Of a stretch of DNA of 64,000 nucleotides, positions 21,118 through 51,637 are shown in pieces. Below the pieces are notes generated by a model. The model was given only the letters and a program-made list of their open reading frames with translations, had not been told where the DNA came from and searched no databases. Both the position numbers and the translations under genes were made by a program. The number at the start of each line of letters is the position of its first letter. The first letter of the stretch is position 1. Source of the stretch: Toxoplasma gondii ME49 (Eukaryota > Apicomplexa > Conoidasida > Eucoccidiorida > Sarcocystidae); assembly GCF_000006565.2 (NCBI RefSeq), contig NC_031478.1:7408343-7472342 (forward strand). The letters are read 5' to 3'.

Positions 21118-24100
21118 ATGCTGGTCCCGTCTCGAATTGTTTCGGGGCTTTCTCTGCTGCTCTTCCTTCTCTGCACCTCTCACCACTTTTACGGGCCGCT
21201 TATTATCAAGAGGGGAGAAGCAAATGTATTTCTAGCTGTCCAACCAACCACCGCCCTTGTCCCCTGTTTCCGCCAGTGCCGAGAATCCACGCAATGCGCC
21301 GCATCTCACATGCTTTCTCCAGGCTCGACTCCTCTGCGGGTTTCTGCCGTTTCTCTCCCTGCCCCGTTCTTCGCACCTCCCGCTTCCTCCAGTTCCCGAG
21401 TTTTTGTAGAACGAGAACTCTCAGCTGTGCAGCAGCTCTGTGCGGCTCCAGCGAACGCCCCTCAGGGGTTGCCTGGCTTTTTGCCAGGCTGCACTCTCCA
21501 CACCTCCCTTTTCTCCCCCGTTGCACCACTTTCGCGAGAGTTCCACAAACTCAGACGCCGGAACGCATTTTCCAATGGCCGCGCAGAGGTGACGCCGGGT
21601 CGCGGCAGGGCTGCGCGTTGCCTCCGGGCAGCCGTCAGAGACCGACGTCTGCCTTCGCTGGCTCTCGACCAGCTGCAGAGACTTTTGGAGGCAAAGCAGT
21701 ATGAGGTAGGCTGCTGCGCGCCGTTTCAGTGTAAAGAACTGACTTCTGCTCCCCTTCGTTTTGCCACTGCTGGGTTGCAGCAACCCAAAAGCGAGACCTC
21801 TGACTCTCGACAGGATACAAGAACTGTCAGAACTGTTCTTCCGGTGCCCTCTTTCCCGGTAAAAACGGGTGAATACCTTGGGTGTGTGTCTGGTGGTTCG
21901 TCACCTGGGATGCAGACAATGTCTTTCACGGCGGTTTTGCTGCGCGTCCGTTGCATCGGTGCTAGGCCTGTGGGCTCAGAGCTTCCTGTGGCGTGCGTAC
22001 ATCCGACGAATGAGTCACTCGTTTTTCAACGACTCTGCAGGTGAAGCTTCTGGTGGAGAAGCACGGCAGCTTGCTGGATCCGCTTACGCTCCGTCAGGCG
22101 TACGTCCACCACACGTTGAATTCGAAGTTGACGGAACGCATGCGCATCCAGCCAAACGCCCAGGAACGCGACGAGAAGATTCGAGCCCTGCACGCAGCTC
22201 GCTGGGACGGTAGCTGCAGAGAGACACGCGAAAAAGAAGGAGAGGAAAGACGCCAGGAAGGGAACTGCGAGCATGTACGCAAGAAACACAGCCGCCTAGT
22301 CGGTGAAGAGAAACCTGGCTACGACCTCCAGGAAGTCCTTCAGGAAACGGAGACGCCGCACAGGCTGAGTGTTGCCTGTGATCTGAAGCGACGGAGCTGC
22401 ACAAACATGGCTGTCAATCCTCGGCGGCTGTCGTACCGAAATCCAGGAGACATCGCTGTCGACTGTGCTAGCGCTGGTGAGTGGAGTGACGCGTTTGTCT
22501 GTGTTGGGAGAAAATGAAGACATGTGGAGTCGCCACAAATCCTGAGAACGCGGCTGTTCCGTTGATGTCGCTTCGTGACGGAGACCACGAAAGGAAATGC
22601 CGCGATGTTTGTCCAGTGCAGGCGCGAAACGGTTGGTTGAGTGTTTTTTCCTCGTTTTTGTAGTGGTGGAGAGCGACTCTTTCGTACGAAGCTGAAGGCG
22701 AGTGTAGAATTCTGTTCGCGTAGGCGCGACTCTGTTAACGGCGTCGAGTGACCCTTTGTAAGACAACGCCTCGGGACTGTTTCCTCGCGTGCAATTTAGA
22801 AACAGAATTTGCCATGCTGGTTCTCTCTTCAGGCGCAGATATCATCTTGGTGAATACAAACAAAGAAGGCTGGGGCGGCAGCTACGATGATCTGCAGGCA
22901 ACTACGAAGGCACTTCGTAACGCGTACACCTGGTCGGACCGACCTGCGGTTGTGATGAAGGACATCATCATTCACCCGATCCAGGTGCGCAGTTTCTTGC
23001 TTTGCCGAAAAAAAACGAGATTCCTTTTCGGTTCGCCACTGGTAATGTCCTACGCGTTCAACCACACAGTTTTGATCTTCGAGGTCGTCGTTTACCGCAT
23101 CGAACTTCTACGGTGTTGGCAGAGCATGCAGAATCACAAGTCGCCAGGCATGCAGTGTCAGTCAGGTACCAATTGATGGTAGACTTCATGCTGCACATGA
23201 AATATGGGATTTCTCTAGTTCTATTCAAGGTGGAAATTACTGTAGAAATAGCACGAACTGAACACCAGGTTAGATCTAACAAAAAAGTCGAGCAGTCTGG
23301 AATCCTTCTTGGCATAATGTCGCGTCGTTCTCCGTAGAACGAGTAACATAGTGCAAGCTGAGAATACAACAGGCAAATACTGAAACCAGTTCTCGACTTT
23401 TTGACGAACAGCAAAACTATGTGGCGTGTGTCTGGTACGTTGTTCTCTGTCAGGTGGCGCAGGCTGTTGAAGCGAAGGCTGATGGAGTTTATTTGCATTT
23501 TTGCATCCTCGGCAAAGATCTGGAAGATTTGCTCTTCGCCTGCTCAACCATGGGAACCCAGGCACTCGTCGAAGTGCACAGTGAGGCCGAGGCCCAGCAG
23601 GCAGAAGACGCTGGCGCCACGCTGCTGGTGGTAAGCGAAGCTCTGATGATTGTCGCCAGGTGCCTGCGACATCAAGCCTATTCCTCAACGGTTGTTCTAG
23701 CCACAATACATGGATCACCCTAGGTACCTACGGCGAACAGTGTTAAATTTCAATCTCCTGCCGCCTTTCTTGTGTGCTTGGAAGCTGTGGTCGTCAACAG
23801 TGTTGGTTTCGTGTACGCATAGAGCCAATCCGATTTGGGTTTCGCCTTCCTGTTCCACCGGCCTCTTCATTGGGAACCCGGCCGTTGCGCTCTGAAGAGG
23901 CGCGCCTGCGCGACTGCAAGTGGAGGAGCAGCGACTAAATCCCAACTCTTTCCTGGAGGCTGCGCTACGTCGCGCTACTAGATGCATGCGTACATCGTCG
24001 TCTTTTCTCTCGTCTGTTTTACCAGGTCAATCAGTGGGACCGCTACACAGGTCGCCTCGTCCCTGAGCAGGCGCTCCGAGTCCGGAGTGTCTGTTCTCCT

Positions 24101-27100
24101 GAGGTCATCGTGCTCGCTTCCGGCGGCCTGATTTCCTTGGCGCAGGCGGCAAAGTGTGCAAAGTGTGGCTTCGATGGAGTTGTCCTCGGACAAGCTCTTA
24201 CTCGCGTAAGACTGAAAAAGGCTACATGCGTTACACGTTTGACTCCTATCCAGAACTTCAAGGTCTGTGTCTGCCGGATCCAGGTTCTGTTGTGTTCGCG
24301 TGGGTTCGAGAACACCTAGTATATCTGTGAGTCTACTACCGACATGCCTCGTATTTCCTCGCAGTTTCCTCTCTTCGTCGTGGAGGAACATATAGAGGGT
24401 TCGCAGAAATGTGTGCCCTTCTTTTCCTGGAGAAATGCGGCTAACAAGGCGCAGTCCTTTCGTTGAGACGAGGGCTGTCTTATCTGGCTAGGATACTGCT
24501 GAATTCAACACTTGTATCTGTCTTTACCACCTTGTGGCTTCGTGATGGTGATGTTTTTGAAGGCAGAACCCACGGGTCTTTCATGAATCTCAGATGTCTG
24601 TAATAATGCGGTGTACGCAAGCCGTGTGGCTGCTGGTGAGTCTCCGATGTGAGACAAAAGTTCGCTGTTCGCTCTCTTGCTAGCAGCTACAGCTGATTCT
24701 GTTTGCCTGTTGAGAAGGTGTTTTTGGGCATGCATCGCCTTCAAGCAGAAGCAAGGGAGTTGTCGGTTCCAGCCCCACTGAGTTCACTCAAAGAAAACAC
24801 TAGAAAAAACTTTCATGCTGAGCTGCGTATGTCGCACGCTCTTGCTGCTTCTAGCCTGTTTTCCTCCTTCTGCCAGAATACAATTGGTCTGTTTGTTTTT
24901 GGCGTTCGAGTGTTATATTCCTTATTATTGCCGTACACCACAACCTCACTGAACTGCCTAAGACAGCGAGAAGCGTCGGATTTCAGTACCCTGCCGGCGT
25001 TCATGTTGCTTTTTCTGGCATGTGTATTTGTGACAGCCTGGGGCGCTAGACTTTATTAAAGAAGTCAAGTCTTGGCAAGGCGCTCCTCGCGAGCTCGTGC
25101 ATCTCTTTGCCCCCAATCCACGTGGAGCGGCAGCAGCGGCCAGGGGCCTAGAAGACGCCGCTGCCGCAGTCGAGGAGGAGGAAGCGGCGCTGAAGGCCGA
25201 GCGTGAAGCCCGTCGAGCCGCAGAACGCGCCCGCTCAAAAGAAGGGCAAAACCCAACCTCTTTATCCGACGGTGAGGCCTTTGTGGTCGACACGAAAGAC
25301 GCTGAATCGATAGATGACTCCCTGGACGAAGAAGACGACTTGGACGTGGCGGAGAAGGTCTTCGAGGAGGCGAAGCGCGGGTGGACATGTCACACCGGAG
25401 CAGAGAGAAAAAAAGAAAATTTTGACGAGAAACCTACTGAGAGGCGGCGCGCCTGGGAATCGGAGCCAGATGATCCGTCAGCGCGAGACAGAGGAGGGGT
25501 CAGGCGAAAGGAAAGAGCAGAAAGCTGCCAGGATAGGATCCGCAACAAAGGTTTTGGTTGTCCTTCGCTGGCCGATTCTGAATTGTATGAAGACGAGAAC
25601 TCGGAAACGCTAGGTAAAAGATGTGGACAGATGCAGGGCGGCGCAGGTTTGCGTGAAGAATTTACTGAACGGATTCTCCGACTGTCAGGGCCGGACTTCC
25701 AGCCTCGACAGCCGGCGGCGTCTGCCTTCGGTTCGCACACAGTGCCAGCTCGAGAAGGGGATGCAGTTGGTAGGGCGCAGTCTCTCTCGTCGCTCAATGA
25801 CAACTGTGGAGACTCTGCATCTCCTTCCCGCAAGTCTGGAGATGGCGGCTACCCAGCCCCGCCGCCGGGCATCGTTGATGTGTCAGGCGAGGAGGACGAG
25901 CATTCGCAGAGGGTCGGGAGTTTCCACGCATTTTCCAGTTTACGTGCGCCGGATAATAGCAGCGGGCGAGAGCGAACAGAAGACCCGCAGAAGAAGGCAA
26001 ATGTCTTCGACAAGAGCGACTCTGCCCCCAACGAAGAGCAGGTGCTCCGGGCTTTCACGCGCGAATTGTTAGGGCAGATCGCGCGCGAACGGCAAGTGCA
26101 CCGGATGGCGGAGGAAGAGCACCGAGATCAGCAACTGGCGATGTTTCGGCAGTACCAACAGCTCGCTCGGGCGTTTTCGGAGGCCGAAACGAACACCGAA
26201 GCCGTCAGAAACGGCTCTTTGTTTGTCCCACCTCTAGCCCTCCAGGAGCAGCTCCAGAGTGATCCGCATTTCCGGGCTTCGGGGCCTGCAAAAGAAGACC
26301 TCGACCCCCTGGCTGTGATGGCCCAAGACGCCGACACGGTCGCGGAACCCTTCAAAGAGGCCTTCCCTAACGACCCCGCTCGCGCAGCCGCTGCATGCAC
26401 AGCCGCAGCGGCGGCGGCCGTCGCCGACCCCGCAGGTTTCGCTGCCGTGGCGCGGGACCATCTGGAGAAAGCAGCGGAGAGAGGTGCGTATACGCTGGCA
26501 GATGCGAATGACCCAGCGATGGCCCTCAGCGCGGCTGCCCCGACTTTTGCCGCCGCCTCTGCCACCGCCGCCTTGACTGCTGCGGTGGCCCGGGGTGAAC
26601 GAGACGCCTCTACGGCAGCCAAGGCGGCGGCGGCAACTCTCAAGGGCACTAACCCTCCGAATCCGAATGCCCTTGCGGCCTTGGCGGCTGCGGCGATTCA
26701 GAGAAGGAAGGCCTCAGGCATTCGCCCCGACCTTCTGGGGGTCCCCTTAGTGCAGGCTGGAGGACTAGAGTCACAGTGTGGAGAGGAGCAGAGACTCGCG
26801 ACAGTTGGAGGCGACTCGAAGATCGTGGGCGCTTCGCTCACACCACATGCAGACTCAGGCTTTTCGGGGACCGTAGGTTCCAGGGGCGAGGGGAGAGGAG
26901 CACCGGGCGGGGACGCTGTTGTGGGTTTGGGGGGCGGACAGGATGAGAAAATGGAGCTGTTTGACGAGGCTGAACTCGAGCGAATTGGGCGTCTGTTCTT
27001 CTCAGAGGAGGAATTAGATGGATTTCTCAAAGAATTGAGGGCGAAGAAAGCCACGCGACAGTCCGCGCAGGAAAGCTCCGGTGCAGGGGGACCTGGTAGT

Positions 27101-28522
27101 CCTCTGGGCTCGGAGACACACGCTGATCGGAGTACAGAGGCAGGGTTTTGTATTAGTCAACAGCCGGAGAGAGCAGGCGAGGTATCCTTTGCTCCACACC
27201 AGGAAGCAGCTGTTGACACTCAGGCTGGTGTTAGGACAGGCACCGAAAGTTCGTCCCCAATGTCTCAAGGGCCAATCGTGAAAGAGAAGCAGTCGGATGG
27301 TGAAGAGCACGAAGCGCGAGATGATGAAGAAAAGGCACACTCGAAGCAAAGCGCTGACGAGAATGGGTCTTATCAGAACGTTCAAATGGAGAAGGCGCGG
27401 GGGCACTCTGGAACTCAAGACAGTGTCGAAAATCAAGAACCCGATTCTTCAAAAGGCAGTAGACATCCTTCTGAATCATATTCTGAGCCGCATGCACCGC
27501 TCTCCGAAGCTGCCTCAAGGGACCTTGGCAGTGAAACAACTGGAGGTGGACCTGCGTCCAGCTGGCGAGTCGAGAAAGTCTCCTTCAACACACAAGAGTG
27601 GTTCGCGCGGGCGGATCGCCGAAAGAAAGAAGACCACGAGTTAGAACAGCAGTTTCTCCAGCAGAGTCGCCAGGCAGCGGCTCAGATGCTTCCATGCAAA
27701 AGCGAAGAAGCCGCCCAAAGAGGCTTAGAAGCCATCGATGCTCCGGAAGCCGTTTCGGCAGCCGGAGCGAGCGAGAAAGGCGGTGATGCCTCCTTCGGGG
27801 ACGGGGGGAGAGAAACGTTTTCTCGTTTTGGGAGACATACCCCTGAGCCGTCGCTGACGACTCCAATGGACCAGATGGAGGCGTTTCTGCCGTTTTTCCA
27901 GGGCCACGGGAGTCACCATCACCTGGACGATCCTCCTGAGGTGCAGGAACGCATGCAGCAGGAGGCTTTTCTCGAAGAGCTGAAGCAACGCGGGAGCGGT
28001 GGATCGTCTTCCGAGGCGTCTCTCGACGACTCCTCCCGCGGGTTGCCACGCACTGGCCACCACGCCTACGAGCTCCTCAAAGAGCAGCAGAGGCTGCAGG
28101 CAGAACGGCGACAACTCCCGCCCCCCGCAGCGGCTCTCAAATCAGATGCCGTCACCGCAGCAGCCTCGGCTGCAGCTGCGGCTTTGGCAGAGGGAGCCTC
28201 TCCCCAAGCTGCTGTTCGGGCAGTCAAGCGGGTGACTTCAGCAGGCACTTCCAGAAGTCCCGAACGCAGTTCCCTCGAAGAAGAAAGAGAAGAAAAAGGC
28301 GCTTCTACGCAAAATCCTTGTGGAGAAACAGATAACAAGGGCATCCCGAGGTCAGATGCGGCAACTGCTGCCGCTGTTCAAGGAGCGATGTTGGGCGGCG
28401 AACGCGGTGCCTACGCTGCGCTGCTGGGTACCAGCAGCCAAGGCGCTGGAGGGTTTTTCGAGAGCTATGTTGATGATCTAGCGAAAACTGGCGGAATGGA
28501 AGTGGAGACTAGAGAAGACTGA
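21118..28522 (+). CDS. Indole-3-glycerol-phosphate-synthase-like protein with bipartite leader and giant C-terminal extension (6 exons, 1,672 aa)
   Basis: The exons are 21118-21705, 22041-22476, 22833-22984, 23454-23630, 24026-24205 and 25037-28522; phases join without a break. Residues 7-20 are a signal-type hydrophobic segment, followed by ~160 S/R/A-rich residues, a layout typical of apicoplast leaders. Residues ~300-530 follow the TIM-barrel order of IGPS (TrpC), which makes indole-3-glycerol phosphate. Against the well-studied Sulfolobus enzyme, catalytic lysines and the base are kept (K312, K384 in VMKD, E432 in LVEVH, N453), but E51 is D310, R182 is W455, E210 is A482, and the phosphate-site SPSG and GSS motifs are altered. 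From ~540 the protein is acidic and low-complexity, with an alanine-rich stretch near 960-1066. Exon 6 was started at 25037 because only that acceptor restores LTRPGALDFIKEV in frame. The fold is confident; activity is doubtful. Confidence 0.85.
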
Positions 28523-29997: not shown

Positions 29998-32900
29998 TCA
30001 CCAGCCTGAAGGAATTTCGAAAGGCAACTCTTTCTTCTTTCTTTCTTTCACGCTCCAGGGATCTTCGATCTCTCGTTCAACCTCTCTCTCATACGGACTC
30101 GCGTGCAACTCGGGCACTTGGCTGCACTGTTGTTCCTGGCGGCCGTGCCACCTGGTGGGTTTTCCCGTGTTGAGAGTCCGTCCTGGTCCGCCGACAGGGG
30201 TCCTGGTTCGGCCCTGACTGCCATCTTGGCCCTCTTGCATCGAAGTTCCACGAGACGCGTCCTCGAGGATGACCGCCACAAGAGCGTAGTCTGAACGACC
30301 GCGACCTTCACCTCCGTTCAGAGACTCCAGAATGTCTCCATTCGGGAGACACGACGCCTGCCCTGTCACAGACGTGCCAGGGAGCTTCCCACAGATTTTC
30401 GAACCATCGGATGGGAGTGATCCCCTTGTGTGCAGCGAAGGAGAAGCTGCTGCGGCGATTGCTACCGTTGACTGCTGGCCAGCAACCAGATGGCGACCTG
30501 GTCTGTTCTCGTGATTTGAGCTTGCGTCAGAGAGCTCCCCGGGACATTCTGGAAAGGTTTTGTTCGAGAAGTGGCAGTCTGACCCCTCTGGTCTCTCACT
30601 GCGACTCCTACAGAGTCTGTGAGCAACGGGCCGCACGCCAGGCGACGCAGACAGTGCTCTCCACTCTTCATCCTTGTTTTGCGCAGTGTGTTCTGGAGCG
30701 ACCCCTGTCACAAAACTCACCTGATCGAGGTTGTGTAGGTGGTGGCCCTGAGAGAATTCGAGGACCGATGCTTCCGGGTACCTCTGTCCAGGCCGTTCTG
30801 AGCCAGAAAGCGCTTCAGGGCTTACCCCCTCGTGCGAAGAAGCTCGTTCGTCTGATGCCGGTCCCCAGTGGAGATCTCGCGGTATGGTGACAATCAGATC
30901 GAGAATGAAAAGCCTCGCAACCCGAACTTCAGCTTCGTAGCGGACATTCAGCGAAAGCAGCGCCGAGGCCACGTCAACGTGAAACGTTGATGATTCTGGC
31001 GCCCAGGAATCCCCGCGGCCATTCTTCGCCGTTGTTCTCTGCAGCTGCTCAGGTACATCGAGAACAACCGAAAGACAGAAGCTGACAACGGAATAAGTTG
31101 CCACTGTGCAGACAACCACGTTGTTCGCGGGGAGGCTAGTCTACGTGTAGAACACACACGACACGTGCAGTGCGTGCTGTCGAAAATTTCAATGCACAGA
31201 CTCTTTCTTGCAAACTGCGAAGCGAGAAAGCGAGCCATCCCCGATTGTCAAGAGGGGGGAAGCGAGTTGCGGCCAAGACGCGAACGGTCGTTTTCACTCT
31301 CGGGCACCGCCCCTCATCTAAGCGAGACAGGTTCGACCACCCCGAGAAGACCGTGCGAAGGGCAGATGACACGAGGGACTCTTCGCAACTGCTTTTTGCT
31401 GATGATATTCGGCGTCAGCTCCACTAGACTATGGCACGCTGCGCTCTACTTGCGCGTTAATCAATCAACTCGCCGACGAGCAATGTTTCGCAGCGAAAAA
31501 CTAAATGGCACAGTATCGAGCTAGCCAACTCGCAGAACCTTCACCACAAGACTGACACTGAACTTACTGCTTCGTCTAGCTGTTTCAGCTTCTCTGCTCT
31601 TGCTTGGAAATCCGGCATTGGGGGCAGCAACCCCAGCTGATACGCCTCACATAGAAGTCGGTGTCTCCTGTCGCACGACCCGAACAGAGCACGAAAGGAT
31701 GGGTTTTGCGCACATGACGTAGAGTGCCACGAGCCGGGGTAACGAAAAAAGAAAGTTCGAAAACAGAGACTCTCAGCTTCCTGTTGCAGGTCACGCTGAT
31801 TACCCTGGATATCTTTAGTTGGCTTTATAACTGATTTGTTGGAGAAATAATTGTTCTATCCAGACGTGGTGTTCTTCACAATAAATTTGAAACAGGGCCG
31901 CATCCTGGAGAACATGACGATACCCAGATCCGCTAGTGCTCGTCCGTCAAGGTGAGAAGAGGCGCTTACTGAGCAGGTGCTCCAAGTCTCTGTTTGAGTT
32001 CGGCACTGAAGATCGGTTCGCATAGATGCAACCACAGATCGATGAACGCTGCCGTTTCCTGTGGTTGCTGAAGTACCACTTGTGGCAGCAACGCCGACAC
32101 ATCATGAATCAAGGCCCTTCTCCTCGAGGTAGCGATGGGGCGTCGATCGAGAGCGGTCACTTCCGCTTGAAGTTGCGTCACGTAAAGGCGCCACATGCTC
32201 TTGAGCCGAACCTCTGTGACGTCCAGGAGACCTACGAATCAACCGAGAGGAATACAAACTACTTGCCTAGGATACTCAATATGACTCCGTTTACGGGATA
32301 CAGACAACCACGTTCTGTATGGTTGCTGTACACCACCATCCCACTGGACTGCTTAAGACACCTATAAGTGTTGGATTTCAGTACTTTACGACATTAAGGT
32401 TATTTCACATCGGCTATGGTCTAAGCGTAATACGTGCTGCCAATCAGTCGCCGTGCCACAGTTGCTGTGTCGCGTTGGCATACAAGTCCCAGTCAACAGA
32501 AAGACAGGTGAAGACCCAAAACGCCTTGCTGGTAACCCAACCCCCCCCCAGAAACACATCTGTCTCCATCGTATTACGTATCCGCGGGAGGCCGTACGGT
32601 CCAACGGTGGAGACTTCCTTGTCGAGTAACTACCGTCCCGCTGCCACATCTCAAAGAACCCATGCGACAGTTCCAGCTACTCTAACAAGTTCAGGGGTAC
32701 CAGCAGCTGCGGCGCTGGCTCAAGTTTGCCTTCGTACACTCGATGGCCTTTCTGTGTGCCCCTGTAAAAGTGGTTGGCTAACGGAACATAGTCGAAGACA
32801 GCTCCTGCCGTTTGCGGAAAGACGTGCATCCACTCGGATACGGCTATGAATATTCGAAAAGAGCAAGTCTCGTGCCCCTGGTAGTTGGCCAACACCAAGC

Positions 32901-35900
32901 AGGAAAAACCTCCTATTCCTCACCTGCTGTGCTGATGGCTGTCTCGACAACAGACCGAGAGGGGAATCGCAAGGGCTCTCCAGAAGCCTTCGGCAAAGCA
33001 CAGCATGGATGAGGACTTTCAGCTGATCCGCTTCCCAGCAAAGCTGTTTCCCTCCACGTCTCGCCTCGATTTGCACGCAATCCAGCACCGACGCTCTCCG
33101 CAGAGGTGAGCCACCGACCAGTGCCAGACAGGTGGCGGCGTGCGCCTTCCTCCAGGCTAGTGTAAACCAAAGTGAGGAGTTCCTCGTCTCGAAATCGAAC
33201 CTGTCACCAACGCACAACACATACTTTGGAGCTTTGGGGGGGGAGGACGAGGTGCTGTAAGTGAGACTCCTGTTTTAAATCTCGAACGTCTTTGTTTACC
33301 AGAACCAAGTTGTATTCATCGTTTCATGGCCTTCGTGTAAAGCGCGTTATGTATATTGGTATCCAGCGTATCTTTGTAAAACAAACATTTGCATACACGC
33401 TCGCTGCCGTGAACGAGTGAAGAACTGCAATTTCTATATCTCAAGACGCCCAGAGAGATCCCCTCAAAGGCGGAATCGCTGTGAACCACCACATGTTCAA
33501 ATCGATTCTACCCATCTACTGACTATATTACGCGTCAAGAATTGTTGGCGCATGACCATTCGTGTGTTCAGAGCTCGAATCTCAGATACTAATCCTAGCT
33601 TGAAATGGGATGACACGAATACTAGCAAAACATCGGTTGTGGATAGAATTACTTCCAACATCGCCTTTCCCAGGTAGCATTTTCCTTCGGAAAAAGAGAA
33701 TCAGAGTCGTATTGATGGACGGTCCTCAAGAGGGGCAGGCAAACCATCTGGCAACAGGCTCGGTCACACCGAAGTTGCCAAGGCAAAGCTGCAGCGCAGA
33801 GCCTAACAACACAACGCGTACCTTCTGAAAGCCACTGAGAACTGTCACCAGCTCGGGCGTTGTGAACGCCGAAAACTGTCTTTTCACTTGTTCACTCAGC
33901 GTCTCGTAGAACATAGAGTCCTGAGAAGCAAAAGAGTCACAGGACTTCACTCTGGGCAGCATGCATACCACTTCTCTGTGGTGTTCATTTTGTTTCGTGA
34001 TTCGTCGTTGACTGTTGATTGTTGCCAGGCCGCACATGTTCACGGCCATCGGAGTCGCTGTGCGTGGTCGGCCCCAAAAATGTCAGTTTCCCAACATACG
34101 AGGGCTCCGGAATTCGACCATAATAAAGTGGCTACTTTCTGCTCTCCTGTCTGCCTTGAGCGCCCCGGCAGTTCATGGAAATGCATCGCAATTTAGCTGG
34201 GCCAGCCAGTATGAGTCGATGAATGAGGGAACTCCCCTTGGGTTGCTACTCACCTCTAGACCAGCTCGAGTGTAGGCTTCAATCACAAGCGCGAGCCACG
34301 CGGGCTTTAACTGCTCCGGTCGCTCTTGGATGAACTTAGCCAGCAGAAAGAGAGAGAACTCATCGGAAGCTGAATTGGACACGACAAAAAATCCCTGGTT
34401 TCGGCGTGGTTGGCTAGCTTTTCCAAGAGGCAGAGACGCAGTCCGCACGAGCTTCAAGTTGCGTTTCCCGAAATTTAAACTGGAAAGAGGAGAGATTTGG
34501 CAGCGGTTTTGCTTCCAGTTTGTACTCGCACTTGATCGAATTCTACACGCGTTGCCGCATTTTCTTGTGCTGCACCTAAAGTCACAAGACGTAAGCCTCC
34601 TCAGGACACAGGTGTCGGGGCCTGTAATCTCAGCAACGAGTCCTGGTCACTCAAGCGATTCATCGAGGCACCTCGTCTAGCACGAGGACATGGGGGTTTG
34701 CGGAAACTCACCAGCGGCATGCTGTTCCTCATTCCTAGGGCTCAAAGCACACACAAGGTTCGTGACATCAGCTGGCAGAAGCTGATGCAGCCTTGCACCT
34801 ACAACATTAGCACATCGCAGTGGCTCCATTCAGTTCGTATCACGTCAAAAACCGAATGTTACAGCACAGACAAAAAACGCACATGCCACTCGTGAGGCAT
34901 TCGGCACCACATATAGTGCTTGTCAGACTGTCACACTTCTGATCGATGATCCCTAGGGTGTGCATCGCACGGCTTCTAGTCCTTCGCGATTATACTAGTG
35001 CCGAGAACAGAAGCAGACATGACTATTCCAAATTCACCTGGTTTAGGCCCTGCCTATGGGTGTGAACTTTCTGTGGCCTATATGTTTCGCCGGGGCTTCC
35101 ACTTTGCTGGAAACGACATCCCTGTATTCACGCTTGGCATGCACCGCCTTCCGGACACGACCACGTATTTGTCAAAGGCCTGAGGGAAAACGTCTACGTG
35201 CCCGTTAAAAGGCCCCTGATTCGGCTTACAGCAGTAATCTGTCAGTGTCGTGACGGCATCTCCAAAGCGCTCTGGTAGGCAGAAGTTTCCTCTCGACGTG
35301 CTGAGAATGGAAATGAAAGTAATAAGAGGCCTTAGAGGCAAGTTTAGATGTGCTTCGACTTCCGCTGGGCGCTGAGACAGATCATTCGTCCCTGCGTTTG
35401 TCTCGGCAAAGTATCGCGCGCTCCCCACCCTCAGTCTGACGGCGTCGAATTCTTGGTTTGGGTCCTCCGTTTCCTGGGGCGACGCGAGTGTGAGGAGTCT
35501 CGGCAACACAGACTCGAGAACCACCAGAAACTCGGAAGAGCAAGGCGTCGAACTCTCCCTCCGGCTGCCGCGTTGCATGTGTCTGGACTCGCCGTGAACC
35601 TCAAGTGCACGCGTTGCCTGGAGGGCTGCACTCAAGCGCGACAGACGCAGACTCGAGGACAGAACGTCGAGGAGCAGGTGTGGATGGAGGCTCGGCAAAC
35701 TCGGCAACACCTGCTCGATAAGGTGTCGAAAGAACTGGGGGAAGTGTGGAGACGTCCGAGATGTGCTTCGGCATGAACCATGGGAGCCAGACGAGTCTTC
35801 GTTCTGTCCGAGATCCCGTCCCTTTGAGAAGTCCCCTATCGCTGGATCACGACCCGTCATGGGGAGGGTGTGTCTCGGCGGCGGGTCAGGCGGTGGTAGA

Positions 35901-38077
35901 CCACTGAAGGAGGCTGGAAGCGCTGCGAAGGCAAACAACAGAAAAAGATTCTCTCTCCGGTCCAGGCACGGTAGCCGCTGCAGTACGGGACCGAGGAAGT
36001 CGTCGCCGTTGCAGCTGGAGCTAGAACGAAGCATGGGGGTCCGGGAAGGAGAGTCGCGGGGTCGACCAGAAGGCAAGTGGGTGGCCACCAGTTCCCCCAG
36101 GGCTCCCCACCAGAGCGGTTTCTGTCGTGTCTGAAGACCTGGCCGCTCTCTGGTTACGAACGGCAGAATGGAGTGGATAGAAGACCCGACTGAGAAAATC
36201 GGGAAACAGAAGACGGTTGAAGACAAGCGTTCACAGTTCGCCTCGCGATTTGGCAGGCAAAACACATAATTCCTGTCCTCACTAGGTGCGTCCGAATACG
36301 CTGGTGTCGTGTCTCTGTGCAAGCATCGCCTGGAAAGAATGGGCAGCAACAAATTACGGTAATATCCCACTGATTTCACAGCAATTCCGGTTCCCTCCTC
36401 AATCCGATCGCTGTGTCCGCCGTTATCAACCGCACGCGCGGCCTCTGGAAACCCTTGGCTAGATCGAGGGGCATGGGTGACGGGTCGGTGCGCTGACCTT
36501 CTCGACAGGGTACCGACATTTTCGGGCAAGAGACTGAAAACAATTTGCCCAGCTGGTAAACCAAGAGAGGTATTTAGAAGGCACGACGATGCACACGCAA
36601 GCGGCAATGTCACTTCTTGGTCTGTTTGGGGAGGGCTCCAGTCAGGTTCCAGCGATTGCTGGCAACCAGATCTCCTCTCGATTCCGTCTCTTGCTATGTC
36701 TTCTGTGGCAGGTACAGAACTGTCTGGTGACCCCCTTGCCTTCGCTTGCCTCCCAGTTTCGCTGCACACCTTCATCGGGCTCCGGTGGAGAAAGGGAGAT
36801 AGAGTGAGAACGTGTTGTGCAATGTGCTCCACGCAGCCGCTGTGCTCTCGATCAGTCCACGTCCAATCCTCTTCGACAGTTGGCGAGTCCTCAAATGTAG
36901 TTCTCGAGACGAGTGTAGAATTTGCAGCAGCACCAGCAGCAGCGCATGCGACAAGCGGCGTGGCATGTCCATCTGTTTCGGCCGGTGGTGCCTTGTCACA
37001 GCGATTCGGCTGCGATCCCAGGATAGCTTCATGCACTTGCTCCGCTCCAGAAGAACTCTGAGACTGGCCCCAGTTCTGCTGCATGCAGAGGTGCCGCACA
37101 ACCCTCCAGGCTCCCTCAAAGCCGCCAATGCTAGCGTCCAGATCTGCACCCTCTAGCATCAGAAGTTTGGTCGTCTCTTCTTCTGTAAAAATAACTCCGC
37201 GCAAACCAGCGAGTCTATCCGGGGTTTCGTGCAGAGAGTGCTCGTCAACAAACGGTTCTGTCTCTCGCTTAAGACTGGCTTCTCGTCCTGGCAATTGTAG
37301 AGCTGTCTCTGGACCAGGTCCAGGGTTGGGGTGAGGCAGAGCCCCTCCCATAGCGTGGCTCACAACATCCTCTGGGTGTTCTTTTCTGACCGTTGTTTCG
37401 GCATCCAAAAACGAGCTCCTCTTGCTACCAGCGTCGGTGCACTCGTCGCTGGAGACGGCAAATCGTTCGGCAGGCGAGGCGACACTCAACTGTGCAGAGA
37501 GAAAAGATGCATCGCGGGGGGAGGCGCCGATGTTGAAGCGAGTCCCAGGTGCTCCGCAAAACCTGGCAGACGTTGCCGTCGAAAACCTACAAATCCCTCG
37601 ACTTCGCCCAGGGAGGTCTGACAAAGGAGAGACGATCGGCATTTGGGAGCTAGCCACTTCAGCGGTCACCGGCGATGTGGCCAGAGGGCCGGCGAACCAC
37701 AGTCGAAGAACGTGACATTTAGGGCACTGAAAAAACTTGTTTTTTGAAGGAATCAAACACAAAAGTTTTCTGTCCTCTGCATCTCGCATGCATCCGGCTG
37801 AAACAAACTCTGAAGAGTCAGAGGTCTGAAATTCCTTGGCCCAAGAACACAGTGCGCGGGTATGCATTATTCTCGCTGCCGTCGGCCGCAGGGGTAATCG
37901 GCGGGTTCCTGCTTTACCGTTGGCGCATTGGTTCAGGTTTAAAGCGTGGATCCGACGACTCCAGTGGCAAATGTTTTTTGGCCAAAGAGGCAGATGTTCT
38001 GCGTGCGCGCGTGTCTCGCGACACCGAGGCACCCGGACGCCGGCGGTTAGATGCATTATGCAGAAGGGGGCTTCCAA
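29998..38077 (-). CDS. Probable RAP-domain/FASTK-like organellar RNA protein (6 exons, ~1,540 aa)
   Basis: The exons are 38077-35230, 34369-34254, 33920-33822, 33200-32924, 32213-31970 and 31036-29998. Donors are T|GTAAGC, GAG|GTGAGT, AAG|GTACGC, G|GTGAGG and CA|GTAAGC, and all phases agree. Only the last acceptor is weakly supported; without that splice the protein would stop at TAA 31966. The N-terminus (about 1-70) is rich in R and H with few acidic residues, like a mitochondrial presequence. Residues ~950-1194 (exons 2-5) are helical, with motifs such as WLALVIEAYTRAGLE and ELLTLVYTSLEEGARRHL that recall FASTK/OPR-type repeats. Residues 1213-1246 (DVASALLSLNVRYEAEVRVA, LFILDLIV) look like the first half of a RAP domain; VAVILEDAS near 1446 and QVPELHA at 1501 look like its second half. 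They are separated by ~190 low-complexity residues. RAP proteins of this phylum act on mitochondrial rRNA and mRNA. Function here is inferred from weak motifs. Confidence 0.65.
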
Positions 38078-41000
38078 AAATTTCCAGCTCTCTCTCTTCG
38101 GCCGAAGGCAAATCAGATCAAGCAGCAGACGGTGATCGCGCGTTCAGCATTCCTCACTACAAGCAAGTTGTGACCTCGCGCGAGTGGACAAGTGTCACTG
38201 TACTCCACAACTCGCTGATTTCTTAACAAAAGCATTGGCTCACTAATAAACCGGAAAAACACGGCGGAATACGGCGACATCTGTAGGAGGCCTCCCACGA
38301 CGAATGGTGTGGGAAGCCCCCTAAGACAGACCTCAGTTCGTGGGATACCGCTCGTCTTGCCTTTTTAAGCTGAGTTCTGAGCAATGACGCACCGTCGCGA
38401 TATAGATGATACTTTGCTGTTTCATACTCCTCCAGCCATGGGTTCCGAAGACCCACTAACGAGTTGGCTGTTCAAAAATTTGACTCGGTGATTCAAGTGG
38501 AAACAAGTCGAGAACGGTCGGGCCTTTCTTCCGGATGATGCCAGAATTTGCCGCCGTTATCGCTCTCGCATGCACACTCAAGTGCATGTAACAAACGACA
38601 GTGCACATGCAGCTGAAATGACCGAACCGCAAGAAAAATGAGGGTGAAGCTCGAAAAATGAATTCGCCAGTGTATGGTAGACCTGACAAGTTGTTGGAAA
38701 TGGGGGAAGAAGTGTATTCACGAAGACTGAAATGTCTGATGTCGGTAACCCAGGGCGCATGCATCATCACTCTTCCCCTGTGAAAACCGTCAACAGTAGG
38801 TTGCGGTCAGAGGACCCTGCGAGCATTCCACTTCTCATATATCTCAATTCGCGCCTGAATCAAACTCCACGGTAACGAATTCTCCCGTTTGCTGAGCGCT
38901 GCATGTGCAGTGTTTAGGGGAGTGATGCGTTGTCGCTCCTCTGTCAGGCGCTATTTCACAAGCATTAGTGTTTATTTCACATGAAATATAAATCCATTCT
39001 GCGGGTGTGCGACATATAGCGTGCACTCGGCTGTCGTGAGTGAGGGGACTACAGAATAACGTGGTTGTCTGGCAGGCAGTATGTGTATGCTCACTGTTGC
39101 GTTAGCCCTTCGTTCTCTAAAAGAGGCACGAAATCAACCTGTTGCACGAACTGTGTCGTGCCTGGTGTCACTGAGCCGGAATCACAGGCAGATCCAGTTT
39201 GACACATCCCCTTTACATACCTTGGAGGTTTACTTTGTGCATTGATAAGGGACTGTCTTTCGCCCCATACATGGCACTAGCCAAGAAAGGTAGGTTTCAC
39301 ATGCTATATCGGGATGAACTGTTACTCCTTACAGCAATTCTCTCAGGTACAAACCGCCTCATCAGAGACAGCTGGTATCCGGTATATCATCCTCATGCGA
39401 AAGCGGCAGTGACATCATTTTCCGGGTGGCAACTGAAAGATAACTGGGAGAGAAAACTGTGGGATTCCAATCCACCCTTCTCTCTCAGTCATTCACGTCT
39501 TAGTACACCGGGTGTATCTCACGAAGCTTCCTTCGGTACTAATCACAGTCCAGATCTAACATGTATGTAAGCACATAGATGAACTGAAAAGCATACCACC
39601 GCATGCTAACGACTGCGCTGCGAACTATTCTTTTCGCTTGACGTGTATCGCCCTACGCTTCACCTACCATCATTCCAGGGCAACCGGATTTGCCCGCAAG
39701 TTCCCAGAAAAACTAACTGAACTTGAGATTACAGCGTGTTAAGACGACAACGGTGATCCTCTCGTAAAATCAAGTTTCGAATGTGTATACAACTGAATGG
39801 TAATCAAAAGTAGCGAAAGGCGGTTGACGCCACCCTGTCTCATCGGCGACATTACACTGTCCCGAAATGCTGGAGAAAACACCCAAAGGAAATGCGTTGT
39901 TCCCCCCGACCCCGCTCCTACTGTCTGTCAAGTGCAACTGCGCCTGCTGGACATTTACAGAAGGCTTCAAACAGTCATGTAGCGCGTCTGAGTTGCAATA
40001 CGGTGCGCGCTGCAACAGTGCACGGCAGGCAGTCGCCAAAATGCGGAATCGGTTTTGACCCGCTGACTCCGCGATCTCGCCTACTAGACTCATGACGTCC
40101 GATAGACTTACCTGAGTTATCTTTCACGCAGTGGTTGCAGTGCTCCCCAAAATGTAACGGAGAAGAAAAGGCTATCTCAATGGCTGGAATGTTGCTGTGT
40201 CGCTAGCGTGCAACGCCAGCAGGTTCCTGGGATGTTCTGTGACCTTATCCTGAAGTGCACCCACAGATTCGTCCATCAGTAGTTTACGTGGGTGATCAAA
40301 GCAGCCCTCTTGGTGGATTATTCGTGAACGGAAGAAAACTTGCAGTGGAAGCACCAGATTTTCCCTGGACAGCTTCTGTCTTCGTTCCGTGCAGCAGAAT
40401 TGCAAACCGGCACGATCAACACGAACGCCATTGCTTTCAACAGGTTTAATCTCCATTGACACCACTGTATGCGTTGAATGTCTTTAAAGATTGAGTTCAC
40501 TACGTGAACGTGATTTGTGGACCGACGCCACTCCTCCCACAGGGGCCTTGCCTCTTCACAGTCGGCGCAGGTCAGTTCAGGCAGTCAATATCCTAAAGAA
40601 GCGGATTCGGCGTCCAGAGCAGGAGTGTAGCACATATGTCGGCAGAGGTTTTCACTGTCACTGACCGCAGCTGACTTGGTCACCGCCCCAAGACAAGATC
40701 GCCTACACTTGGCTTGCCATTGGAGAAGGCGTCGAGAGAATTCGGCGTTTATCTTCTTTCCGTCTGCGACCGTGAGGGACGTTCATTAGCCCCTCCTACG
40801 CAATCGAATATTCACTACAACCAAAGGCATTTGCAGGAAACAACTCAGTCTCGTTTTTCTGTTAATCCATAAGTCGGCATCATGTGACCGTGCTCACCAT
40901 CGAACTGTGCGGGTCCTTGACATCACAGGCGTCTCCACGCGGTTCGCGCACGGCTGTCACACCAGAAACTTTCGAATTACGTGCACACTGACAGGTCGCG

Positions 41001-45592: not shown

Positions 45593-48500
45593 TCACTCCA
45601 CACGTACGACACCGGCGTGAAGCAACAGTCTACGTCTTCCTCTCTTCAACGCGCTCCACCCGGATCCACCTGTGTTTCCCCACGCCGGATCTTCTTGCTG
45701 CATTCGCAGTGCTCGTGGCTTTACAATCGCCAAAACTACCGGTTCTGTCGACCAGTGAGATTTCTTTTTCTCGCCAGCAAACCCGTTCTTGAGTTGCCTG
45801 GAAGAGTCTTGCACGACCATCTGCGTCCCCTTGTCGAGTACCAGTGCTTCGGCTCTTCGACCACCCGATGGCTCGCCGGCATGATCTTCTGCTGATTGCC
45901 TGATGTGGCGCCAGCTTCGCGGAGCAAGAATACACTGAACGCGGATGTCATCAGGTACTGTCCGTCCGCGAACCACATAGAAAATGTTAGCTAAACTTCC
46001 AAAAACTACCGCACCTTCATGGATTATCTTCGTAGACTTGACATGCATCAGAAGAAAACGTCTGCACCATCGCCCAAAGCTAGGGTGACTCTCCGATGCA
46101 GGATTTCTGGGCCAGCTGCCGCGACGGACATCCGTAGAAGCTGGAGGACGGAACCGAGTATGTGTGCTGGCGGCTTTGCTTGAATCTAGAGTTGGGCCCG
46201 CGGTCGCATCGATTTCTGTGTCCTGTGACGCGACTCCCGCACTGCCTAGTGAAAGTGCAGATTCCACGGACACGGAATGCCCCATAGTGCTACTCTCAGA
46301 CCTTCGTAGCCGCGAGGCAAAAAGAGACTGCTGAGACTTCCGCGAAATATCGACAGCGCATGTCATCGAGTTCCTCACACGGGAATATAGTAATTTGGCA
46401 AGTGCACGCAGAGGCAAATACCCGCACAGCGGGTCATCGCACCCGTTTCCCGCTACCCTGTTTCGTGACTGATTAAAACGCGCCTGGATGTCTTCATCCT
46501 CAAACGCTTCTTGGAAGCTCTCTCCCAAAAGCTGTAGGTCGTTATTTTCTGTGCCTGCCGGGAAACAGCTATCCAAATTCGCGCGTTCATCTGTCTGCTT
46601 TGCACTCGTCCATACTTCCTGCAGAAACTTCCGTAGCTGTCGGATTTCCAGTGCCGCAGCACTCCGCACCGCCGAAATACAACGCCGGAAATGATGCGAA
46701 CCATTTTGACGCATGCGACACCTCGAACGTTTGTCCCCCTCAGCGAGGGGTGCTCTTTTAACTCGTGCCAGCGTCGCTGATCTCTTGCTAGTTTCTGCAA
46801 CTGGTATGAAGCAGCTTGTATTGAGACTCCACACTTTTTTGTCGAGCGTCGTAACATGATCAGAAGTTGCAATGGCAGCTTTTGATTCCTCAGACGTTTC
46901 TTGCGAAATACTTGTAGTTTCACCTACATGCGGAGTGTCTGCGGCTGCGGAGCGGGGAGGCCACGAGTAAGTTGTGTGATATCTGTGACGTTCTCTAGGT
47001 GCCCTCAGTGACAGGCTATGACTCCCTTCTCCATTCGTGGCTGTTACAAAGCAGGACGCCGTACATGCTGCAGGATTGCTTGTAGTGGCATTGTGTCTGC
47101 CTTCAGCACCTCCGGGAGAGGTAGCGGCGACTTCAGAGGTCGTTGCTGACGCCAGGCGGCCCCCCCTGCCCTTGGGGTCCACGGTGTCCACCGTAACCGT
47201 AGACTGATAAAGACTCGGAGCTTTTGTGCAGTCGTGCCCTTGCCTGGAGAGCATCACGCCTCCACAGCAGTTCTCCTCGTCCTCTCTCGCAGACAGGCGC
47301 ATGAAATGTGGAGACGTGAAACCGGCATACAAAAAGTCGTGCAGTCCTGAGTCGGCTGAAGTGCTGCATGCACAGAAGGCAGGCAAGCAGGCAGAATCTG
47401 CACACGTGAAAACATACACAGCTCAATGGACACCTTTCTTCCTGGGTGGGCTAGGAAAGGCTGATACTGCCACTAGGGTGGGAGTAAAGCTCAGGCGCCA
47501 GTTCTACGAACAACTCCAACGCAGACGCGCCTTCCAGCGTCAGTTTACGAGGACTGAGATGCATAAAATCGGTGCAAAATCAGATGCAAGACTTAGACTG
47601 CAGAGCAGATAATACTCACCGCGTAGCGGTGTCGCTTGAGGCATCAACATACGACGTGATCGAATCGACCGACGCTCGGGGACCTGCAGTTACAGTGCCC
47701 TTCGAGGAATTTCCTCCTTTGAGTCCACACGATAATGTTGAACCATGTGCTGGCGCGACTTCCTCAAAAAGGGTTGATCTCAAATGTTCACTTCCACGCT
47801 TGCCAGAGTTCACGGATACAATGTCGTCGGGCTTGAGTTCTTCGTTGCACGCGTTCACTGGCTCATGTTGTTGAGAGTTTTCGTCTGTTTCATGTGTTGT
47901 CGCTGCGCCTGTCGGCAGACGCAAGGCGACCCTTGCTGCGACGGTTCGCTGCGCGCTGTCCATGAGGGATGATCGACCCCAAAACGCCGATTTCTCTTCA
48001 TTTTCGGAAGAATTCGCTGCTTGACAGGGCCCCACAAGCGTCTGCGGACGGACACCAGGCGCAGGCGGCCGGTCATTGCGTAGCGGCACTAACCTTAGGG
48101 TCTTCAACTGTCGGCGACAAGAGTCCGGGCTAGTTGTGCGCATGGCCTTGGCCTTCAAACGGTCTGCCTCCTGGTTGATCTCCCTACCAGCACTTTCATT
48201 CTCGCTTTGCCTGCGCTGCTGTTGTTGACACGATGACGGAGACAGTGATTCGGACACGAGCAGGCGTGTCTGCATCCCTCCATTCAAGAGGCGTCGAGTA
48301 GACGCGCCTTCACTAACACTGTCCACTGCCTCTGCCCTCCCCGGATCCTGCTCCCTGTCCCCAGCCAATGACATTTGACCTTCAACATTATCCAGCAAGT
48401 CCGTACCCAACGGTCCCGCCAACGCTTCCTGCTCTTCCCTTTCACAGCGCCGTTTATTCGACAGATGAGTCTGTGCCTGTGTGGGTTCGCCGTCGCTATT

Positions 48501-49595
48501 TGAGTCCTCCTCGTCTGAAGCAATGACGGTCTCCCGCGCAAGCCCGTGGTGCGAATGCATCATGCGATCGACGGCTGAAGAGAGTTGGAATTGACTTCCC
48601 TGTTCTGTCAGGCAGTGGCTTCTGAGTGGGAGCCTCGGCGCAGGGTTCGCTGCGGAAACAAGCGTCGACGGTTTTGGAGGAGCAGTGCATCTCGAAAAGG
48701 GTTTCTTTTGAGAAACACGCATCGATATCCGAGCTTGCTGATCGGTCTTCCCTCTCGCCAAAGGACGAAAAAGGGAGTAAGGCCGCTGTCTGGTCAACAT
48801 TTCCGCGGCACGACCTGCAGCTTCCGGGGTAGTCGACATAGACTGTTCTACAGTATAAGGTGCTGCATCTGTTGGTTTCCCAGCGTCTCCTCTGCATGCT
48901 TTTGTGGTGTCTATCCCAGTGCCACGCCAATGAGTCAGACACTCACGGGTTCCCACGGAAGCCATCAATCGCCGCTGCGTTCCTCTGCAAAGCAATGCAG
49001 ACGGCGTTGGTGTGTTCAGGGACGCGAGTGTGCACTCATTTGATCCATTGACAAAGGCCGTCCTATGCGATAGTACAGCGAAGTCATGCCTAGGAAAAGG
49101 ATAAACTGGCGGCTCTTGGTTTGCCAGCTCTCCTTCCTGTTTTTTTCCATCCCTGCATGCACGTCGCCACTTCAGGCGACAGCACGACTTTGCGTTCAGC
49201 ACATTAGTCTCTGTCCCCTCAACCGACTCTGGCAGACGACTGTCACACTTGCGACCCCGTCTCTCAGTTGCATACTCGGTGGGGGCATACCAATCGTCTC
49301 CGCATTCACGGAGGTTTTGGCACTGGGTACTGCAGGCGGTTTCCACTTGCCGCGTCCTCCGCTTGCTTCTCTGTAGGCACTCAGCAACGTTTCCTTTCTT
49401 TCTATACGTCATTTGTGAGAGGGACAGGGAAGTCGCCTCGGTGCTAAGGTGCCCGTTCCTCAGGCTGTCGAAAAAAAGTGCCGTCTCTGAGGCTGTCTCC
49501 CCAGCGTCAGCTGAACCAGCAGCATGGAGACGATGAGGCATTCTTTCCCGCACACTTCGCCTGGATACACTTGCTTCGTCACCAGTTCTCGACAT
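45593..49595 (-). CDS. Protein of unknown function (2 exons, 1,248 aa)
   Basis: Exon 1 is 49595-47620 and exon 2 is 47363-45593. The intron is 256 nt, donor CG|GTGAGT, acceptor TGTGCATGCAG, phase 2; the joined codon is CGC. Two long open frames meeting at consensus splice sites in matching phase make the model solid. The protein is mostly low-complexity and polar, rich in S, T, R and A, with many cysteines scattered through it. More structured parts are a likely helix near residues 800-850 (AALEIRQLRKFLQEVW) and a hydrophobic patch (AVVFGSLANIFYVVRG) about 150 residues before the end. There is no signal peptide or clear membrane span and no recognised domain. Upstream exons beyond 49595 are possible; an open stretch around 50000-50410 on this strand was looked at but could not be joined. 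Confidence 0.72.
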
Positions 49596-51637
49596 TGTGC
49601 GAGGCTACAGTTTCGACGACTGTTTACGGGGGCGCTACTCGGCCGCGAACAAATGGGCATCGTCGACACCAATCCTATGTGACCTGTGGCGAACACGCGA
49701 CCACCTCCCCAGTGCTGGCGGAGAGAGGCGAAGAAAGTGTGAGGAAGAAAATGCTTACAGTCGTCGACTTCGCGGGGGCAACCTGCCTTGCCACGAGATT
49801 GTCAGTGGCCCACCACCTGGACTAGGGAAACCACGGCAGTCGTGGTACAAACCAACGCGTGCTAAAAACCGGACCACCGCTTGGAGGGTTCTTATCACAG
49901 ACAATTCAACCAGAAGGAAAAACACATCCGCTGCTTCATTCTTCGATAAAAGTAAACCACAGGTCAATGAGCACAAGAGTTGGCATGCCGGTGTATGCTT
50001 CAGTTACGTTGCCGATGTTTCCACCACATGTCGCGTGGCCGGAGACAACGAAGACATCCAGCTTCTAACAGAGTGACACCTACTGTCTGCACCGTAGTTA
50101 CTAAGAGATAATCGTATACCCTGAAAAAATAAACCACATCGGAAGGTGATTCTACGGAAACAAGTTCGATACGAAAACGAGTGAGATTCTTGAGAGCTCC
50201 CCCTTCGTGGACGGCGCATGCAACAGGATGGCCGGCACCACGCCGTCGCCCGGTGTCCTCGCGTGGCCAGTGGGAGCAGGTCACTCCTCCTGACGACCTA
50301 GCATCTCCGTTGAACTTGTACAAGCATGCTGCCCGAGAGGAAAAAAACAATGCAACACAGCAGCTTGTCAAGACAATCTGACTCGCTTCATCGTTTCTTT
50401 GCAGTATCACCAACCATCACCCCAGTCTTCAACCTGATTTCTGCAAGCAAGCCTACTACATTTCCTTTGTCACGAGCGCTTTTCTACCTCAGATAGTCAA
50501 TCTAGCCGCACACCACGTCGAGATGTGGCAGTATGCGTGGTATCAGGCCGTACAGCGTGAGCGCAGAGAAATGAGCCACAAACCCACACACACTTTCAAT
50601 CCGGTGACAACATAATCTTTCATAATCGATAGTAGGCTTCTTTATGCTTTCAAACACATTAAAGAACGAGCCGACGTCTCAGTTGGAGCCTTCCGTGTCC
50701 TGAACCGTGGGTGCCTTTCTTTTTCACACTACGGCACTCCTGTGATTACCCGCTGCCTGCGCCGACGGGGCAGCGGCGAGTTCCGTGTCCACAGTTCCAG
50801 AGGGTCTGCGTACGGTCGTCGCGGAGGTGAGATTAAAAACCTGGGATCATCCGTGGTTCCTCTTCGCACCGCTCCAGGACCAAGTCTTTTACTGATGTGT
50901 TTCTGTCGAAATCGAGGTCCAATTTCCTCTTGAAAATTCGGTCCGGGGACCTCCGGGACGGCTTATTCCGTTTCGCAGACGCTGCCGCGAAGAAAGTGCA
51001 TGAGATTCAGGGAACCACAGTATCCCCTTCGTTTTGAAATGCTCAAAAGACGAGTTAAAATTCCTAGAATTTGCCGTTGGAAAAGGATCGAAACATGTAC
51101 CTGGATGTGAAATTGTGGTTTACTGAAGTTTAGGAACAATTCCTAATTTAGCCTTCCGCCACGCTTGTGTCGTGTTGCTGACACAGTTGGGGGTTTGGTC
51201 TCTCCCTCGCAACGAAATCCTGTCTTGCCTTTTTTTCTTGCGATTTCTCGTGTCAGTTGCTGGTTATCTTCCGAGAAACTACCTCACTCGTGTCTTGGAC
51301 AGTGGAGTTCTCGAACCTACCTCGCAAGGAGGTTTTCTTTTTCAAAAATCTCAGCTTCGGCCCCGGTGACGGGGAAGTGTTTTGGACGTATTCCCGGTTT
51401 ATTCTGCTGAAGAGGATCTCACACCAGATTTCATATGAGCGCCCTGTGCCAAGATTTCTAGTGTCACACGTAGTCACACCAGGGCCTTACAGCGGACGCT
51501 TTTTTTGTCCCTAAGCGTCGGTGAGGTACGGGTAACACCACTGCGGTGCGGCTGGATAACTTGCTTCATTGTAGACGATCTGTCCATTCTTGTGACCGTA
51601 CGGCAATTTTCGTATCAGTAAACATAAAGAGTTTACA
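49596..51637. other. Divergent intergenic region between the 1,248-aa gene and the UBL gene
   Basis: The flanking genes point away from each other, so both promoters should be here. No gene is supported. The sequence from about 50.9 to 51.5 kb is rich in short T and A runs with ORFs overlapping on both strands, which looks non-coding. Confidence 0.5.

Follow-up and report, generated by a model that had tools for sequence, protein, structure and literature searches.

The Toxoplasma gondii AMR1-family protein appears to keep the IGPS catalytic quartet around a replaced anthranilate pocket

A six-exon gene on the plus strand of Toxoplasma gondii almost certainly encodes this parasite's member of the AMR1 (IGPS-like) family. 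Judged from aligned sequences, its barrel has kept the catalytic chemistry set of indole-3-glycerol phosphate synthase (IGPS) and lost the parts that hold anthranilate. In the best reading the protein is probably an active enzyme of the apicoplast whose substrate has changed, catalysis on that new substrate being the weakest step. The gene, the paradox that it poses and its role are already known; the combination of a retained quartet and a replaced pocket goes unmentioned in the text of Tang et al (2019), although a figure there may show it.

AMR1 is PF3D7_1363700 of Plasmodium falciparum, an IGPS-derived TIM barrel that has lost key IGPS residues (Tang et al, 2019; PMC6380595). PfAMR1 is essential for apicoplast biogenesis: knockdown stops growth, the apicoplast is lost, and growth is rescued by IPP (PMC6380595). 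The same study raised the paradox of such a protein in a tryptophan auxotroph, included the T. gondii IGPS homolog in its PfAMR1 alignment and found that retention of IGPS-like proteins tracks the apicoplast rather than tryptophan synthesis. HA-tagged PfAMR1 did not colocalise with ACP, for which the S4 Fig legend offers low expression as a possible explanation. A 2021 metabolomics study, in the excerpt available, describes disrupted isoprenoid synthesis upon AMR1 loss, with raised DOXP and MEP (PMC8022201). The IGPS-like domain of PfAMR1 and a distant T. gondii relative had already been reported in 2013; the accessible portion of that study gives PfAMR1 none of the conserved IGPS catalytic residues, from an alignment at 5% identity, so that the Plasmodium member may not be catalytic. 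Our literature searches listed no functional study of the T. gondii gene.

Results

Gene model and family assignment

The gene lies in a 64,000-nt stretch of T. gondii ME49 DNA (the window). Its exons, as proposed in an earlier note made from the sequence alone, splice into a single frame of 1672 aa. We enumerated GT/AG site combinations near the expected borders, of which 144 were open in frame, and retained the set with the best consensus borders among 40 of these. The exon model holds: the deposited T. gondii protein (P0011) is also 1672 aa long, agrees with these joins and differs from the spliced model by 13 substitutions, leaving 1659 of 1672 residues identical. Exon 1 (21118–21705) encodes aa 1–196; exon 2 (22041–22476, aa 197–341) carries conserved N-terminal helices up to about aa 235, a variable linker and the first barrel strand. 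The barrel continues through exon 3 (22833–22984, up to aa 392), exon 4 (23454–23630, aa 393–451) and exon 5 (24026–24205, aa 452–511). Exon 6 (25037–28522, aa 512–1672 and the stop codon) adds the last barrel helix and then, from aa 549, a tail of about 1,120 aa. Deposited orthologs come from Neospora caninum (1652 aa; 63% identical to P0011 over the full length), Besnoitia besnoiti (1735 aa) and Cystoisospora suis (1760 aa, partial). Set beside this 63%, the near-identity of the spliced model to P0011 supports T. gondii as the species.

A barrel query against the 65.3-Mb T. gondii genome, with the best candidates scored, gave four matches, each an exon of this gene; no second IGPS-like locus was found among the best candidates of the protein query at E up to 1. 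A Pfam IGPS family search of the same genome returned zero matches, this gene included, its division into exons being the probable reason. We assign the gene to the AMR1 family because the T. gondii homolog figures in the PfAMR1 alignment of Tang et al (2019) and because the barrel query found a single IGPS-like locus. Like PfAMR1, it encodes an IGPS-derived TIM barrel in a tryptophan auxotroph, with IGPS residues lost, large extensions and, very likely, an apicoplast association; large extensions have also been described for noncanonical IGPS-like proteins (PMC6380595). The tryptophan paradox, the lost IGPS residues and the likely apicoplast role, all raised in the earlier note, were right, but had been published for AMR1 in 2019 with the T. 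gondii homolog aligned.

In protein searches, a 627-aa query retrieved eight proteins with ordinary IGPS domains (about 8,000 candidates sharing most words were scored) and a 329-aa query retrieved two; the matches to these queries were bacterial, metagenomic and, in one case, from an oomycete. The full-length query retrieved 12 proteins, four of them coccidian, again with about 8,000 such candidates scored. Because no Plasmodium, Vitrella, Theileria or Eimeria name appeared in the match lists of the three queries, we limit family-wide claims to four coccidian genera. Elsewhere in the window there are four long open frames on the minus strand, at 35078–38143 (1021 aa), 45593–47422 (609 aa), 47616–49604 (662 aa) and 29998–31140 (380 aa); none has a Pfam match above cut-off.

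Active site of the barrel

The barrel matches the Pfam IGPS family (PF00218) with 78.1 bits, above the family cut-off. No listed TrpC model reaches its own cut-off: the best NCBIfam score is 75.1 bits, against an equivalog cut-off of 329, and stand-alone TrpC cut-offs range from 258 to 414. The structure prediction suggested in the earlier note, made for a P0011 fragment from eight sequences, has a mean pLDDT of 68 and block means of 75–93 over most of the barrel; the best solved-structure matches to this predicted barrel are IGPS and designs built on IGPS. Compared with canonical IGPS (TrpC, PF00218; for example M. tuberculosis 3t44 and S. solfataricus 1igs), the fold and the N-terminal helix are common to both, whereas the coccidian protein has an added leader and tail, and its first loop is longer and has lost the SPSxG motif.

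For residue comparisons we aligned the four coccidian proteins with 93 canonical rows, made up of the best 80 of at least 248 relatives, each trimmed to the stretch around the matched pattern, and 13 non-coccidian proteins from the protein searches. Conservation at aa 384–392 is biased in those 80 because the gathering pattern fixes Lys110 and neighbouring residues; at the Phe112 position it allowed Ile or Phe. In Sulfolobus numbering, Lys53 (Lys312, 22386–22388, exon 2), Lys110 (Lys384, 22958–22960, exon 3), Glu159 (Glu432, 23571–23573, exon 4) and Asn180 (Asn453, 24029–24031, exon 5) are kept in all four coccidians, as the earlier note had claimed for T. gondii. This quartet is named as essential for catalysis by S. 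solfataricus IGPS in the excerpted text of PMC7681013. Ser56, Gly212 (Gly485) and Gly233 (Gly506, like Gly485 in exon 5) are likewise kept in 4/4. For PfAMR1, in contrast, the accessible part of the 2013 study reports no IGPS catalytic residues.

Counted over the canonical active site (Glu51, Lys53, Lys110, Glu159, Asn180, Arg182 and Glu210), four of the seven residues are retained. The earlier note was right about Asp310 (22380–22382, exon 2) in place of Glu51 and Trp455 (24035–24037, exon 5) in place of Arg182. In canonical IGPS this Arg contacts the carboxylate. Its placing of Ala482 at the Glu210 position was a register slip by one: an ungapped strand alignment and the 1igs offset give Ser483 (24119–24121, exon 5), which is Ala in Besnoitia. 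The neighbouring Ser211 is replaced by Gly (Gly484, exon 5). When Asp replaces the Glu51 equivalent of M. tuberculosis IGPS, 35% of kcat is left. At the Glu210 equivalent of that enzyme, Glu219Ala has undetectable activity, Asp leaves 1.2% and Asn 47%, and Gln raises activity tenfold. Loss of Glu210 is the strongest argument against activity. An otherwise canonical oomycete IGPS, the IGPS-PRAI fusion of Achlya hypogyna (P0009), has Leu at this position, as do two of the 93 canonical rows in all; Glu210 may thus not be absolute in nature.

On the anthranilate side, Phe89 is replaced by Trp (Trp355, 22871–22873, exon 3), Phe112 by Ile (Ile386, 22964–22966, exon 3), Leu131 by Tyr (Tyr405, 23490–23492, exon 4), Ile133 by His (His407, 23496–23498, exon 4) and Leu184 by Arg (Arg457, exon 5). 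Gly460 (exon 5) occupies the position of Leu187, which by our own equivalence matches Phe201 of P. aeruginosa IGPS, a residue described in the excerpt of PMC7681013 as enclosing anthranilate. Together with Trp455 these residues form a new conserved pocket set, and nearly all of the new residues are identical across the four genera. At least 95% of the canonical rows agree at 34 positions, and of these the coccidians keep 16 and change 18; the chance of the whole quartet falling among the 16 is 0.039, which is only modest support, and the pattern behind the canonical set fixes Lys110. In the barrel, 25 residues shared by all four coccidians occur in none of the canonical rows.

Conservation and phylogeny

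With gapped positions excluded, barrel identity to P0011 is 207/225 in Neospora, 189/225 in Besnoitia and 160/225 in Cystoisospora (92, 84 and 71%), against 621/1068, 493/1082 and 311/930 (58, 46 and 33%) for the tail. In a tree, a branch of 3.03 + 0.84 changes per site (the midpoint root falling between) parts the coccidian group from the 93 canonical rows, and branches inside the group measure 0.02–0.26. Such a difference is consistent with an episode of rapid change and later constraint, with long-branch error possible. The tree has unsettled bootstrap values and a midpoint root, and plastid and nearly all eukaryotic IGPS are absent from the set, so it says nothing on origin. Two sequences from Chlamydiia MAGs (L008 and L009) are the best bacterial IGPS tblastn matches to the coccidian barrel among the matches listed (E = 7e-25 and 1e-23); they do not group with it in the tree.

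Leader and N-terminal helices

Exon 1 begins with a hydrophobic N-terminus followed by a basic, acid-poor stretch rich in Ala, Ser and Pro, a putative signal and transit peptide. In the three genera scored (the partial C. suis protein was left aside), this stretch spans 136–148 aa with 2.8–4.1% acidic and 11.5–15.4% basic residues. Such a composition is the expectation for a bipartite plastid leader, and it supports the bipartite leader proposed earlier; location of the protein in the apicoplast is very likely. Identity to P0011 in the leader (aa 1–165) is 65/155 in Neospora, 28/137 in Besnoitia and 22/101 in Cystoisospora, gapped positions excluded.

A conserved N-terminal helix begins near aa 171. 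At 21628–22157 (aa 171–235, with an intron between) there are two helices whose conservation is nearly that of the barrel (64/70, 60/70 and 54/70 in the same order, gapped positions excluded). The first resembles the IGPS N-terminal helix, and the second is an insertion relative to the canonical rows of the alignment.

The tail

The tail, which the earlier note proposed to look for in other coccidians, occurs in each of the four deposited coccidian proteins, T. gondii included. The description of it as alanine-rich, acidic and free of recognised domains stands in so far as none of the four proteins has a Pfam match there at E up to 1; it falls short in that the tail also holds discrete conserved islands. 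Going by the structure model, in which 753 of the 1161 exon 6 residues lie below pLDDT 50 and no strands are predicted, the tail is largely disordered, interrupted by helical islands that are conserved.

Two confident predicted helices fall on such islands. One is a long helix at aa 840–890 (26021–26173; block means 80–93), with 42/51, 32/51 and 32/51 residues identical to P0011 in Neospora, Besnoitia and Cystoisospora; the other lies at aa 1150–1187 (26951–27064; block means 77–91; 35/38, 29/38 and 24/38). Alanine-rich helices of low to middling confidence (block means about 38–74) are predicted at aa 945–1078 (26336–26737; 113/134, 105/134 and 70/134), and the island at aa 1436–1486 (27809–27961; 47/51, 42/51 and 28/51) has mostly low model confidence. 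A third confident predicted helix, at about aa 1363–1393, is in a part unconserved in Cystoisospora (3/25 over aa 1352–1384).

The alanine-rich segment at 26366–26653 (aa 955–1050) looks like a tandem duplication with a unit of about 47 aa: none of 500 shuffles aligned aa 955–1001 with aa 1002–1050 as well, this being one of ten alanine-rich pairs tried, and the other nine were unremarkable against the shuffles. No other genomic copies of the tail were found with three tail queries, each of which matched one place in the T. gondii genome.

Discussion

The earlier observation of an altered IGPS-like gene is partly confirmed, and its interpretation partly supported. That interpretation offered a choice between a new substrate in the apicoplast and a catalytically dead scaffold; the retained quartet together with a conserved new pocket favours the new substrate and leaves the scaffold as the main rival. 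In the mechanism that we propose, the bipartite leader would direct the protein into the apicoplast, where the barrel would carry out lysine/glutamate acid–base chemistry. The substrate would differ from CdRP but most likely still carry a phosphate, since the phosphate site is partly retained. The reaction product would be needed for apicoplast biogenesis, and the short conserved helices of the tail would probably tether or regulate the barrel. More tentatively, and at somewhat less than even odds in our judgement, coccidian AMR1 may be a working enzyme with intact quartet and swapped anthranilate pocket that makes a metabolite needed solely to build the plastid, with the disordered tail linking catalysis to the biogenesis machinery.

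The conserved residues could instead mark a binding site that functions without turnover. In that case the barrel would bind a ligand or partner as a pseudoenzyme, and the tail would do the work, serving as an assembly platform for apicoplast biogenesis. The losses of Glu210, Ser211 and the SPSxG loop fit this account, as do the conserved islands in an otherwise disordered tail and the 2013 description, in its accessible portion, of a PfAMR1 lacking catalytic residues. We nevertheless consider it less likely than a working enzyme, though a serious competitor: the acid–base quartet is kept in all four genera, the barrel is conserved far better than the tail, and a pure scaffold has no evident need for active-site lysines.

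Much less probable is that exon 6 belongs to a separate downstream gene and that the giant tail is an annotation artefact. The TrpC model NF001369 does not discriminate the join, giving 75.1 bits with the exon 6 start, 74.6 without it and 75.7 with intron read-through. The same join is, however, present in the deposited T. gondii, Neospora, Besnoitia and Cystoisospora models, all of them predictions that may share a bias, and aa 525–548 just past it are conserved at 23/24, 21/24 and 17/24 positions in Neospora, Besnoitia and Cystoisospora. Least probable of all is residual or genuine IGPS activity on CdRP. The Pfam match and the quartet would suit such an enzyme, but the TrpC scores fall far below the stand-alone cut-offs, and the barrel lacks Arg182, Glu210 and the anthranilate pocket. 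Neither PfAMR1 nor the IGPS-like proteins of Vitrella substituted for E. coli trpC, in an assay where the protein was not detected and expression is unconfirmed, and the other trp enzymes were looked for and not found in more than 30 apicomplexan genomes, save TrpB in Cryptosporidium (PMC6380595).

If the barrel is a working enzyme with a changed substrate, the seven substituted pocket positions should help to define that substrate. The coccidian quartet argues for turnover assays rather than scaffold tests alone, and the coccidian orthologs make AMR1 function more testable. As the apicoplast is essential, AMR1 is of interest as a drug target.
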